Assembly: GCF_028649455.1 (NCBI RefSeq)
Contig: NZ_JAQSIO010000001.1
Location: forward strand, 1 to 64,000
Reading direction: 5' to 3'
Length of the DNA stretch: 64,000 nucleotides
From: Curvibacter microcysteis
Lineage (GTDB): Bacteria > Pseudomonadota > Gammaproteobacteria > Burkholderiales > Burkholderiaceae_C
A program made the translations under genes and the position numbers. This document shows positions 52,857 through 55,835 of this stretch, one piece after another. The notes beneath the pieces were generated by a model that did no database searches, was not told where the DNA came from, and saw only the letters and a list, made by a program, of their open reading frames with translations. The stretch's first letter is position 1. The number at the start of each line of letters is the position of its first letter.

Positions 52857-53984
52857 TCAGGCCTTCAGGGCGCGACGGGCCTTGACGGCGTCCGACAGCA
52901 CCGCCAGCACGTCGGCTGAATCGTCCCAACCCAAGCAGGCATCGGTGATGCTCTGGCCATAGGCCAGGGCCTGCACGTCGTCCTTGCCCGGGGTGAACTT
53001 CTGCGCGCCCGCATTCAGGTGGCTTTCGACCATCAAGCCGAACACCTGGTGCGAACCACCGGCCACCTGGGCCGCAATGTCCTTGGCGACATCGATCTGG
53101 CGCTGGTGCTGCTTGCTGCTGTTGGCGTGGCTGCAATCCACCATCAGCGTGGCGGGCAGCTTGGCGGCAGCCAGTTCGGCGCAGGCAGCGCCCACGCTGG
53201 CGGCGTCGTAGTTCGGCGTCTTGCCACCGCGCAGGATGACGTGGCAATCCTTGTTGCCCTGGGTTTGAACAATCGCCACTTGGCCGTTTTTGTGCACCGA
53301 CAGGAAGTGGTGACCCCGGGCCGCTGCCTGAATGGCGTCGGTGGCAATGCGGATGTTGCCGTCGGTGCCGTTCTTGAAACCAATGGGGGCCGAAATGCCC
53401 GAGGCCAGTTCGCGGTGGACCTGGCTTTCGGTGGTACGAGCCCCGATGGCGCCCCAGCTGATCAAGTCGCCGATGTACTGAGGCGAAATCACGTCCAGGA
53501 ATTCGCTGCCGGCAGGCAATCCCAGGCGGTTGATCTCGATCAGCAGTTGGCGCGCGATGCGCAGGCCTTCGTCGATGCGGTAGCTTTCGTCGAGGTAGGG
53601 GTCGTTGATCAGCCCCTTCCAGCCCACCGTGGTGCGCGGCTTCTCGAAGTAGACACGCATCACGATTTCCAGCGTGTCAGCGTATTTTTCGCGCTCGGCC
53701 TTCAGGCGGCGGGCATATTCCACCGCGGCAGCCGGGTCATGGATGGAGCAAGGGCCAATCACCACCAGCAGGCGGTCATCCTGCGCCGCCATGATGTTGT
53801 GGATGTTGCGGCGGGTCTGGGTGATCAGCGACTCCACGGGCGTGCCGTGGATGGGGAAGAAGCGGATCAGATGTTCTGGGGGCGGGAGCACGGTGATGTC
53901 CTTGATGCGTTCGTCGTCGGTCTGGCTGGTTTTTTCGACGTGTGCGTACCAAGCATCGCTGGTGGTGGCGGCGGGCTTCTTCAT
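52857..53984 (-). CDS. aroG: DAHP synthase (AroG/AroF type I)
   Basis: 375 aa. 3-deoxy-D-arabino-heptulosonate 7-phosphate synthase, the first step of the shikimate pathway. Type I-alpha features are 'VVIGPCSIHDPAAAVEYARRL', 'MRVYFEKPRTTVGWKGLINDP', 'GFKNGTDG' and 'DCSHANSSKQHQRQ'. AGGAG precedes the ATG by 6 bases. The 5' leader contains an aromatic-rich leader peptide and a terminator, so transcription is probably attenuated by charged aromatic tRNAs. Which amino acid inhibits the enzyme itself cannot be told. Confidence 0.96.
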   Translation of the reverse strand: MKKPAATTSDAWYAHVEKTSQTDDERIKDITVLPPPEHLIRFFPIHGTPVESLITQTRRNIHNIMAAQDDRLLVVIGPCSIHDPAAAVEYARRLKAEREKYADTLEIVMRVYFEKPRTTVGWKGLINDPYLDESYRIDEGLRIARQLLIEINRLGLPAGSEFLDVISPQYIGDLISWGAIGARTTESQVHRELASGISAPIGFKNGTDGNIRIATDAIQAAARGHHFLSVHKNGQVAIVQTQGNKDCHVILRGGKTPNYDAASVGAACAELAAAKLPATLMVDCSHANSSKQHQRQIDVAKDIAAQVAGGSHQVFGLMVESHLNAGAQKFTPGKDDVQALAYGQSITDACLGWDDSADVLAVLSDAVKARRALKA

Positions 53985-54024
53985 CGGGGACTCCTGTGCA
54001 AGGGTTTGAGGTTTTGAAAGGGGC

Positions 54025-54063
54025 AAAAAAAAACCGCCGTGCTTTTCAGCTTCGGCGGTTTTT
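54025..54063 (-). terminator. Attenuator terminator upstream of aroG
   Basis: On the minus strand AAAAACCGCCG pairs with CGGCGGTTTTT and nine T residues end the hairpin. It lies 40 bases before the aroG start and 18 bases after the leader-peptide stop. It is not between two genes but inside the leader of one, as in amino-acid attenuators. Confidence 0.9.
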
Positions 54064-54081
54064 GGGAGGGTGTTCGTGCGC

Positions 54082-54153
54082 TTATGCGTTCGCCTCTCGT
54101 CCGCCTGGGACAGAGAACCAAAAGTAAAAGTAAAAGGCGGAACGCAGAGACAT
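54082..54153 (-). CDS. Aromatic-rich leader peptide of aroG
   Basis: 23 aa, too short for routine gene finding. Residues 7-13 are F-Y-F-Y-F-W-F, seven aromatic codons in a row, covering all three aromatic amino acids. GGCGGA-complementary segments flank them: TCCGCC in codons 5-6, GGCGGA in codons 17-18, and CCGCC of the terminator. These are the segments 1, 2 and 3 of a classical attenuator. A TTG at 54162 with a GGAG ten bases before it is an alternative start. Confidence 0.85.
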   Translation of the reverse strand: MSLRSAFYFYFWFSVPGGREANA

Positions 54154-54213
54154 GCCAAGCAATTTAGCACAGCTCCGGACAGGCCAAAGCCCAACTCAGA
54201 GCTTGTGGCAAAG

Positions 54214-54242
54214 AGAATACAAGTTCGAACCAGTTAGTACAA
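54214..54242 (-). promoter_or_regulatory. Possible promoter of the aroG leader transcript
   Basis: On the minus strand TTGTAC (54237-54242) and TATTCT (54214-54219) are 17 bp apart, matching the consensus at 3 and 4 of 6 positions. A start near 54207 would put the leader ATG about 54 bases into the transcript. The match is weak and the location is the main support. Confidence 0.4.
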
Positions 54243-54374: not shown

Positions 54375-55835
54375 TCAGGCAGTACCGCCCACCGTCATGC
54401 CATCGATGCGCAAAGTGGGCTGCCCCACGCCAACCGGCACACTCTGCCCCTCTTTGCCGCAAGTGCCGACACCGCTGTCCAAACGCATGTCGTTGCCGAT
54501 CATGCTGACGCGGGTCAGGGCGTCCGGGCCATTGCCCACCAGGGTGGCGCCCTTGACTGGGTATTGGATCTTGCCGTTTTCGACCCAGAAGGCTTCGCTG
54601 GCAGAGAACACGAACTTGCCCGAGGTGATGTCCACCTGACCTCCCCCGAAGTTGGTGGCGTACAAGCCCTTCTTGATGCTGGCCACGATTTCCTCGGGCG
54701 CCTTGTCGCCACCCAGCATGTAGGTGTTGGTCATGCGCGGCATGGGCACATGGGCGTAGCTTTCGCGGCGGCCATTGCCCGTGGGGGCCACGCCCATCAG
54801 GCGGGCGTTCATCGAGTCCTGGATGTAGCCCTTGAGGATGCCGTCTTCAATCAGCACGTTGCGCTGGCTGGCATGACCTTCGTCGTCCACATTGAGCGAG
54901 CCGCGGCGGTCCGCCAGGGTGCCGTCGTCGAGCACGGTGACCCCCTTGGCGGCCACGCGCTGGCCAATGCGGCCACTGAAAGCGCTCGAGCCCTTGCGGT
55001 TGAAGTCGCCCTCCAAGCCGTGACCAATCGCTTCGTGCAACAACACACCAGGCCAGCCCGGGCCGAGAACCACGGTCAGCTCGCCAGCCGGCGCGGGGCG
55101 TGACTCCAGGTTCGTCAACGCGGCCTTGACCGCATCGGTGACGTAGCCGTCGATGATCGCGTCGTCAAAATAGGCCAGGCCAAACCGCCCCCCACCGCCG
55201 CCCGAGCCCACCTCACGGCGGCCGTTTTGTTCGGCGATCACCGTCACCGACAAACGCACCAGCGGACGCACATCGGCGGCCAAGGTGCCGTCGGCTCGGG
55301 CCACCAGCACCACGTCGTATTCACCGGCCAGACCGGCCATGACCTGCACCACGCGCGGGTCACGCGCTCGGGCCAGTTGCTCGACCTTCTCCAGCAGGCG
55401 CACTTTGGCCGTGCTGTCCATGGTGGCGATGGGGTCCAGGCCTGGATAGAGCGAACGGCTGGCCGCGACCTTGCGGCTGGCCGCCTTGACGCGGGCACCG
55501 CCGCCCAGGCCCGAGATGGTGCGCACCGTGCGGGCAGCATCCAACAAGGACTCCAGAGAAATGTCATCGGAATAGGCAAATGCGGTCTTCTCGCCACTCA
55601 CCGCACGCACACCCACGCCCTGGTCGATGCTGAAGGAGCCCGTTTTGACGATGCCCTCTTCGAGGCTCCAGCCTTCGGCGCGGGTGTACTGGAAGTACAG
55701 ATCGGCGTCATCCACCCGATGGGCTCGGATCTCGGCCAAGGCTTTGGACAAATGGGTTTCGTCCAGGCCAAAGGGTTCGAGCAGCAGTTGCTTGGCGATC
55801 GCCAGGCGTTCGAGGGTGGGTTCGCGTGAAATCAT
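54375..55835 (-). CDS. tldD: Metalloprotease TldD
   Basis: 486 aa. Partner of TldE/PmbA in degrading unfolded or modified peptides. The zinc motif HEAIGHGLEGDF, 'GWPGVLLHEA' and the C-terminal 'GICGKEGQ'-like 'GTCGKEGQSVPVGVGQPTLRIDGMTVGG' identify the family. The start is the first ATG with family-like length. tldE is not in the window. Confidence 0.96.
   Translation of the reverse strand: MISREPTLERLAIAKQLLLEPFGLDETHLSKALAEIRAHRVDDADLYFQYTRAEGWSLEEGIVKTGSFSIDQGVGVRAVSGEKTAFAYSDDISLESLLDAARTVRTISGLGGGARVKAASRKVAASRSLYPGLDPIATMDSTAKVRLLEKVEQLARARDPRVVQVMAGLAGEYDVVLVARADGTLAADVRPLVRLSVTVIAEQNGRREVGSGGGGGRFGLAYFDDAIIDGYVTDAVKAALTNLESRPAPAGELTVVLGPGWPGVLLHEAIGHGLEGDFNRKGSSAFSGRIGQRVAAKGVTVLDDGTLADRRGSLNVDDEGHASQRNVLIEDGILKGYIQDSMNARLMGVAPTGNGRRESYAHVPMPRMTNTYMLGGDKAPEEIVASIKKGLYATNFGGGQVDITSGKFVFSASEAFWVENGKIQYPVKGATLVGNGPDALTRVSMIGNDMRLDSGVGTCGKEGQSVPVGVGQPTLRIDGMTVGGTA

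Follow-up and report, generated by a model that had tools for sequence, protein, structure and literature searches.

Leader and terminator upstream of aroG in Curvibacter microcysteis

The window analysed in this study is a stretch of 64,000 nucleotides from the C. microcysteis genome. On its minus strand lies aroG, which is predicted to encode a type I 3-deoxy-7-phosphoheptulonate (DAHP) synthase, preceded by a short reading frame rich in aromatic codons and by a terminator hairpin (Table 1). The aroG product scores far above the cut-off of the type I DAHP synthase model, and reaches 546 bits with the narrower AroG model NF006723, which is below the cut-off of 568 for that model. The tldD gene is encoded upstream on the same strand, at a distance of 221 nt from the leader ATG.

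Table 1. Features of the aroG leader region in the window. All coordinates are positions of the window.
Feature	Position	Strand	Basis
tldD, metalloprotease gene (context, outside the switch)	54375..55835	minus	NF008006, 670 bits
Putative extended -10 promoter element TGTGC-TAAATT	54161..54171 (hexamer 54166-54161)	minus	sequence
Leader peptide gene, MSLRSAFYFYFWFSVPGGREANA and stop codon (ATG 54153-54151, TAA 54084-54082)	54082..54153	minus	ORF reading; predicted leaderless
Segment 1, TCCGCCT	54135..54141	minus	7-bp complement of segment 2
Control codons F-Y-F-Y-F-W-F	54115..54135	minus	sequence
Segment 2, AGGCGGA (core GGCGG 54105-54101)	54100..54106	minus	complement of terminator left arm
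Segment 3, terminator left arm AAAAACCGCCG (antiterminator partner core CCGCC 54058-54054)	54053..54063	minus	sequence, folding
Segment 4, terminator right arm (54039-54029) and nine-T tract (54033-54025)	54025..54039	minus	sequence, folding
aroG Shine-Dalgarno AGGAG	53995-53991	minus	sequence
aroG, type I DAHP synthase	52857..53984	minus	TIGR00034, 534 bits (cut-off 173)

The leader peptide has 23 residues, and its codons 7-13 (TTT TAC TTT TAC TTT TGG TTC) are seven consecutive aromatic codons. The extended -10 element ends 7 nt before the leader ATG. The intrinsic terminator AAAAACCGCCG..CGGCGGTTTTT spans 54063-54029, overlaps the tract of nine T and is separated by 40 nt from the aroG ATG. 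Thus the leader peptide with its aromatic run, the hairpin 40 bases before aroG and the identity of the downstream gene are all exactly as the original prediction had described them. The 50-nt terminator stretch has a folding energy of -19.3 kcal/mol. The predicted folding of the 141-nt leader is more stable than that of dinucleotide shuffles (z = -3.69), with none of 200 shuffles being equally stable. A simple promoter and terminator scan, which is limited in the loop length and the hexamers that it accepts, called neither a promoter nor the aroG leader terminator. The loop of this terminator has 13 nt, which exceeds the loop limit of 8 in that scan.

To see how unusual the aromatic run is, the pattern of five Phe/Tyr codons followed by TGG was searched on both strands of the 4,822,995-base genome. 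The only match is the aroG leader itself, and the reversed pattern has no match genome-wide. A pattern of six Phe/Tyr codons and TGG likewise has no match in the genome, since the run in the window holds five such codons. The same genome carries a second aroG-type gene, 56 percent identical to the aroG of the window, and no such leader was found upstream of it. Among the best 80 of at least 586 named loci, the closest aroG is that of Curvibacter sp. HBC61 with 97 percent identity.

Distribution of the leader in Burkholderiales and beyond

We surveyed the sequences upstream of 239 aroG-type genes in Burkholderiales and found an aromatic leader combined with a terminator in 166 of them. In the 140 close orthologues, the window included, leader and terminator were present in 138. 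The close orthologues comprise 57 loci from 60 genomes drawn within the same family (window included; the other three genomes had no aroG match at the chosen level), three further same-family loci out of the order-wide draw, and the best 80 of at least 586 named loci, which by title are mostly Comamonadaceae and in some cases just 'Proteobacteria' or 'uncultured bacterium'. These sets overlap, so that some leaders are counted twice; the 166 leaders represent 156 distinct sequences after the run. The leader is missing from two close orthologues, L235, where the region is cut by the contig end, and L237, which has a group II intron at that place. In L237, from an uncultured betaproteobacterium, the intron end (positions 70-141; RF00029, 47.3 bits) is located directly upstream of aroG and near the contig start.

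In the other Burkholderiales families the leader was detected in 28 of 96 genes, belonging to 12 of the families sampled, and 68 genes were without it. These 96 genes are a part of 136 out-of-family matches, taken from the top of the list together with a few distant copies, and many of them are second copies or belong to another branch. A search for the leader in related genomes had been proposed as a check in the original prediction. Second aroG copies within the family (L154, L156, L157) have the leader in none of three cases, and it was found upstream of neither of the large-replicon copies of Cupriavidus sp. EM10 (L291) and Burkholderia stagnalis (L292). Outside Burkholderiales, in a class-wide sample, one of the 48 loci inspected out of 88 matches has a leader. 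At locus L257 (G220:C33), outside the order, a Phe-Tyr-Trp leader RFYRWYYFPKPPAEEG with a matching terminator was found by eye upstream of aroG; either old inheritance or transfer could account for it.

All 166 called leaders have an intrinsic terminator, a number to be read with the calling procedure in mind, which had dropped eight frames without a matching terminator. These eight aromatic frames (L085, L089, L092, L098, L118, L138, L152, L157) lacked either a T run or a stable hairpin and were dismissed as chance; none is among the 140 close orthologues, and they remain among the 73 regions without a called leader. For L157, a looser search later found a hairpin. L104 was counted as a leader, and its T run was found. 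L021 and L066, with weak runs of 5 and 4 aromatic residues in 8 codons, were also counted as leaders. Among the loci outside the order, aromatic frames without a fitting terminator at L245, L248, L267 and L290 were taken as chance occurrences.

Leaders that keep the terminator and lose the aromatic codons would speak against attenuation, as the original prediction had pointed out. A hairpin resembling a terminator was found near aroG in three (L130, L146, L157) of the 73 regions in which no leader had been called, and of these L130 is a plausible real case. L130 (G188:C31) keeps the terminator AACCGCCAG..CTGGCGGTTTTTT upstream of aroG without a called aromatic reading frame, and is possibly a decayed leader in which the aromatic codons were lost and the terminator was kept.

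Two further observations concern the sampled genomes. In L037, L038, L053 and L054, from genomes of about 1.7-2.2 Mb, the apparent end of tldD lies shortly before aroG and no leader was called. Several 'plasmid' records of 4-5 Mb (H63, H64, H67, H70, H90) contain three or four DAHP synthase places each and look like chromosomes mislabelled as plasmids.

The 64-kb window contains no Rfam match at the gathering level. At E <= 1, four sub-threshold matches were obtained over 53960-54230, the best being ohsC_RNA (26.8 of 50 bits, E 0.033). In 14 relatives, no gathering-level match covers the leader, and there is one sub-threshold RNAI match in L086 (28.8 of 47 bits, E 0.1). Hence the Rfam search assigns the leader neither to the T-box nor to another Rfam family. 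In the open-licence PMC literature, searched by titles and abstract starts, we found no described report of this aroG leader in Burkholderiales among the matches listed.

Aromatic residues and codons of the run

The order and the length of the run differ between leaders, with four to eight aromatic residues within eight codons. Phe is present in all 166 runs. In the close set, Phe and Tyr occur together in 138 of 138 runs, and all three of Phe, Tyr and Trp in 127 of 138. The 28 leaders outside the close set are more mixed: 15 have all three residues, eight Phe and Tyr, two Phe and Trp, and three Phe only.

To compare the changes within the run with neutral expectation, we used 1700 close pairs of leaders that have between one and three differences over their last seven codons; the pairs reuse leaders and are not independent. 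Single-base codon changes in the run were synonymous in 1329 cases, aromatic-to-aromatic in 533 and aromatic-to-other in 230. The neutral shares for the same changes are 0.14, 0.07 and 0.79, respectively. This pattern indicates that the aromatic residues of the run are under purifying selection while their codons vary.

The Phe codons of the runs differ from those of aroG. TTT makes up 379 of the 561 Phe codons in the runs, compared with only 187 of 1070 in the aroG genes of loci present whole, where the other 883 are TTC (odds ratio 9.8 for the preference of TTT over TTC in the leaders of the window and its close orthologues). The preference for TTT may slow decoding or keep the run free of pairing.

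Pairing of the leader segments

Two pairings had been proposed, one between segments 1 and 2 and one between segment 2 and the terminator left arm. The 1:2 pairing exists in the window with 7 bp (shuffle p = 0.01). Across the leaders it reaches p < 0.05 in only 10 of 166, and the 1:2 hairpin is therefore no conserved part of the element.

The 2:3 pairing, the putative antiterminator, consists in the window of five G-C pairs only (GGCGG 54105-54101 with CCGCC 54058-54054). In each of the 88 tabulated leaders, the post-run stretch is complementary to the terminator left arm. GGCGG follows the run in 152 of the 166 leaders, in the three reading frames 115, 32 and 5 times, and its occurrence in all three frames points to a constraint on the RNA. 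Complementarity of segment 2 beats that of shuffles at p < 0.05 in 129 of 166 leaders and fails to do so in 37.

Changes on the two sides of the helix go together. A left arm CCGTCGG is accompanied by the partner CCGACGG in L020, L023 and L069, while L071 retains a G-U pair; a left arm CCGCTGG has a partner ending in AGCGG (L077, L082), and CCGCCAG often has the partner CTGGCGG. For the seven-pair 2:3 helix, an alignment of the 156 distinct sequences gave 18 double-change cells; 1000 row shuffles, which ignore kinship, gave 3.8 on average and 10 at most. The fraction of paired cells is 0.920, with a shuffle maximum of 0.911. The seven-pair helix was picked after an analysis of eleven pairs had shown that the outer columns are unpaired; with eleven pairs the margin is thin, as 48 double changes were counted and 300 shuffles gave 34.2 on average and 46 at most. 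The leaders with the terminator class of the window, CCGCCGA (24 leaders), score nearly the same with their own as with swapped segments 2 (16.7 and 16.0). The stretch from segment 2 to the terminator is highly variable in the alignment. We conclude from the aligned sequences that the putative antiterminator covaries with the terminator left arm across leaders, which supports the predicted 2:3 pairing.

Model of ribosome stalling

In the stalling model, the emerged transcript was folded while the right arm of the terminator was yet unmade, and the 3' edge of the ribosome was set 11 nt downstream of the A-site codon's first base. For a ribosome that occupies the aromatic run, the mean antiterminator probability is 0.97, and the run mean exceeds 0.5 in 166 of 166 leaders. 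One codon after the run the modelled probability is 0.64, two codons on it is 0.30, and with the ribosome at the stop codon it is 0.13, exceeding 0.5 there in seven of 166 leaders. In the window, the first Phe gives 0.50, the codons between the first Tyr and the last Phe, both included, give 0.87-1.0, and the codon that follows gives 0.19; over codons 3-7, the first Phe included, the values are only about 0.5. When the post-run sequence was shuffled, the antiterminator probability was flat at 0.53-0.60 and the step was gone.

The step lies at or beside the run end for ribosome edges of about +8 to +13. With edges of +15, +16 and +18, the last aromatic codon reaches only 0.51, 0.39 and 0.25. 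A stall upstream of the run likewise favours the antiterminator (0.82-0.93), so the model fixes the downstream limit of stalling and not the upstream one. Without a ribosome, the modelled antiterminator probability is 0.04 in the window; over the 166 leaders it is below 0.3 in 48, above 0.5 in 99 and above 0.7 in 80. In these last 80 leaders, switching off would need a ribosome that covers segment 2. Within the model, the antiterminator is exclusive with the terminator and would be freed by stalling on the control codons, in agreement with what had been predicted for the aromatic run.

Predicted leaderless start

In 127 of the 138 close-set leaders, an extended -10 motif TGnTRnVnT (commonly TGTGCTACATT) ends 6-8 nt upstream of an ATG that is in frame. 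When only the called ATG is considered, 124 of 138 leaders have the motif, compared with a mean of 0.5 and a maximum of 3 of 138 after shuffling. Shine-Dalgarno-like 4-mers at -15..-4 are absent from the close-set leaders (0 of 138) and present in one of the 28 others, whereas aroG itself has such a 4-mer in 112 of 125 loci. The extended -10 at nearly fixed spacing together with the missing Shine-Dalgarno sequence predicts a leaderless transcript, whose putative start coincides with, or directly adjoins, the A of the leader ATG. Among the 28 leaders outside the close set, only five have the promoter motif, and other families may therefore differ.

A similar arrangement was seen at trpE. In the same genome (L293, G000:C1:728804-729256), an apparently leaderless Trp leader frame MFIHRTFITGCSDRGAWPWRKPVHVHH, whose peptide contains DRGAWPWR, has TTTGCTACACT 8 nt before its ATG. 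A simple script detected frames with AWPWR or AWLWR at 22 of 30 trpE loci (L293, L296-L324). Judged from the frame and the promoter motif, the trpE leader looks like a sister system of the aroG leader.

Comparison with known systems

The nearest known case that we found is the aroR leader of Corynebacterium glutamicum, for which Neshat et al. 2014 is reportedly the original study. The aroR leader peptide (Phe-Tyr-Phe) is described as attenuating the DAHP synthase gene aroF (PMC11802643, PMC4046766), with Phe limitation being effective and Tyr supply being without effect according to the account in PMC11802643. The likeness to the Burkholderiales leader, compared by description, lies in an aromatic leader peptide that attenuates, or would attenuate, a DAHP synthase gene. 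C. glutamicum, however, is an actinobacterium and no Trp codon is mentioned for aroR in these accounts, whereas the Burkholderiales runs mostly hold Trp.

By analogy, the aroG leader would work like the trp, his and pheA attenuators. In Escherichia coli, the pheL and trpL peptides are Shine-Dalgarno-led and their leaders have a conserved 1:2 hairpin. Control codons for the pathway product are described for the pheL-pheA and trpL-trpE attenuators (PMC11802643). Such product codons and the position upstream of a biosynthetic gene are shared with the aroG leader, but the two E. coli attenuators sense one amino acid each and control end-branch genes. A single leader with codons for several amino acids is known from thr and ilv. 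The enterobacterial thr and ilv operons are cited as having attenuators (PMC1183508). They share the multi-amino-acid leader with aroG, in the branched-chain and threonine pathways instead. Attenuators in proteobacteria are reportedly treated in a 2004 FEMS paper by Vitreschak and others. E. coli aroF and aroH, on the other hand, are described as being under control of TyrR and TrpR (PMC11802643).

In Shewanella, cis-regulatory RNAs were predicted by machine learning upstream of aroF and aroH, and the one at aroF is listed as 'Attenuator sensing tyr-tRNA' with reference to a 1980 paper on E. coli aroF-tyrA (PMC2659441). As in Burkholderiales, these are predicted RNAs upstream of DAHP synthase genes, here in a gammaproteobacterium, but their description in that source contains no leader peptide sequence or mixed run. 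In Sinorhizobium meliloti, the trpL attenuator RNA (rnTrpL) is described as beginning at the ATG of the peptide gene, i.e. as leaderless, and trans-acting products rnTrpL and peTrpL are reported as shown (PMC7298713). This matches the start predicted for the aroG leader; it is, however, a Trp-only system upstream of trpE in an alphaproteobacterium.

For Ralstonia solanacearum, aroG1 and aroG2 reporters are described as rising about 10- to 20-fold on deletion of the other gene, and as falling two- to threefold with Phe in the derepressed strains, with little change in the wild type (PMC6379268). The strings 'attenuat' and 'leader' are absent from the main text of that paper. Judged from the reporters, this behaviour would fit attenuation. 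What is new in the aroG leader is the leaderless look of the peptide gene, a feature that the original prediction had overlooked; the gene lacks a Shine-Dalgarno sequence and has its extended -10 at a distance of 6-8 nt from the ATG.

Proposed mechanism and alternative explanations

We propose that the element is a ribosome-mediated transcription attenuator of aroG, as the original prediction had it, with a probability of roughly 0.93. The existence of the attenuator as a conserved element is scarcely in doubt. The proposed mechanism is supported by the conservation of the leader, the selection on the aromatic residues, the 2:3 covariation and the modelled stalling; in its favour we also count the TTT preference of the runs and the second aroG of the genome, at which no such leader was found. 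Against it count the unconserved 1:2 hairpin, the antiterminator favoured without a ribosome in 99 of 166 leaders, the 37 leaders whose segment 2 does not beat shuffles, the five-pair antiterminator and the weak terminator-class signal of the window, the thin eleven-pair margin, L130, the low values for ribosome edges of +15 and beyond and at the first Phe of the window, the missing Tyr response in C. glutamicum, and the 68 genes of other families without the leader. RNA polymerase would start at, or a base or two from, the leader ATG, and a ribosome would load on the leaderless start. A shortage of charged tRNA-Phe, -Tyr or -Trp would halt the ribosome inside FYFYFWF, with its 3' edge ending just before segment 2 (GGCGG). 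Segment 2 could then pair with the terminator left arm (CCGCC) ahead of the synthesis of the right arm, the terminator would be blocked and aroG would be transcribed. With all three aromatic amino acids plentiful, the ribosome would run on and cover segment 2, and transcription would end at the terminator, about 130 nt downstream of its start. If no ribosome is present, segment 1 could also hold segment 2 in the window, which it could not do in many relatives. The basis of this proposal is in silico, namely the parts of the leader, their conservation, the 2:3 covariation, the selection for aromatic residues and the modelled stalling window, and from it we infer the transcription start, translation, termination and the response to each amino acid.

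A plain terminator that belongs to tldD, preceded by a reading frame arisen by chance, is an explanation that we regard as barely credible. The position of tldD on the same strand, 221 nt upstream of the leader, would suit it, but the leader is accompanied by the terminator in 138 of 140 close orthologues with no frame dropped there, a terminator without the leader is found in only 3 of 73 regions, and the aromatic run is unique in the genome. Nascent-peptide arrest of the TnaC type, in which the aromatic peptide itself would stall the ribosome on a free amino acid, is also very improbable. Many close relatives have similar residues after the run (such as SVPGGRE), as such a peptide would suggest; between families, however, these residues differ while GGCGG persists in all three frames, the run varies in order and length, and no conserved arresting peptide was found at the stall site. 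The terminated, leaderless RNA of about 130 nt or its peptide might in addition act in trans beyond the cis control of aroG, as rnTrpL and peTrpL do. This would go with a build like that of S. meliloti (PMC7298713), with an RNA predicted from the ATG, a small peptide and an intrinsic terminator, but the stretch between segment 2 and the terminator is highly variable in the alignment, and we consider trans action unlikely.

A more serious alternative concerns the amino acids sensed, and it is a possible, if still doubtful, one: in practice the attenuator might sense only Phe, the Tyr and Trp codons being tolerated as U-rich and unpaired. Phe is the sole residue found in every run, five of the 28 leaders outside the close set have Phe only (three) or Phe and Trp (two), C. 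glutamicum aroR is described as answering Phe and not Tyr (PMC11802643), and the derepressed Ralstonia reporters fall with Phe by about two- to threefold (PMC6379268). The C. glutamicum case, a Phe-Tyr-Phe leader without a Tyr response, also means that a mixed run is no proof that every residue is sensed. Against Phe-only sensing, Trp, a residue with a single codon, is kept in 127 of the 138 close-set leaders, and non-aromatic replacements are rare in the run. On the sequence evidence, Phe, Tyr and Trp are probably each sensed in the cell.

Returning to the attenuator, the fuller proposal would be a conserved OR-gate, in which a leaderless leader reports a shortage of any aromatic amino acid to the first committed enzyme of the shared pathway; untranslated leaders without a 1:2 pairing would read through, and only a ribosome that clears the run would switch aroG off. 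We see the chances for and against this complete scheme as evenly balanced. The attenuator itself would explain how many Burkholderiales control the entry into aromatic amino-acid synthesis differently from the TyrR/TrpR scheme of E. coli. With such a leader, nature would sense three amino acids through a single peptide, and it would offer a clean system for asking how a ribosome that translates a leaderless mRNA can keep up with RNA polymerase. Since the natural variants number more than 150 and differ in codon order, the relation between codon position and regulation would be directly testable.
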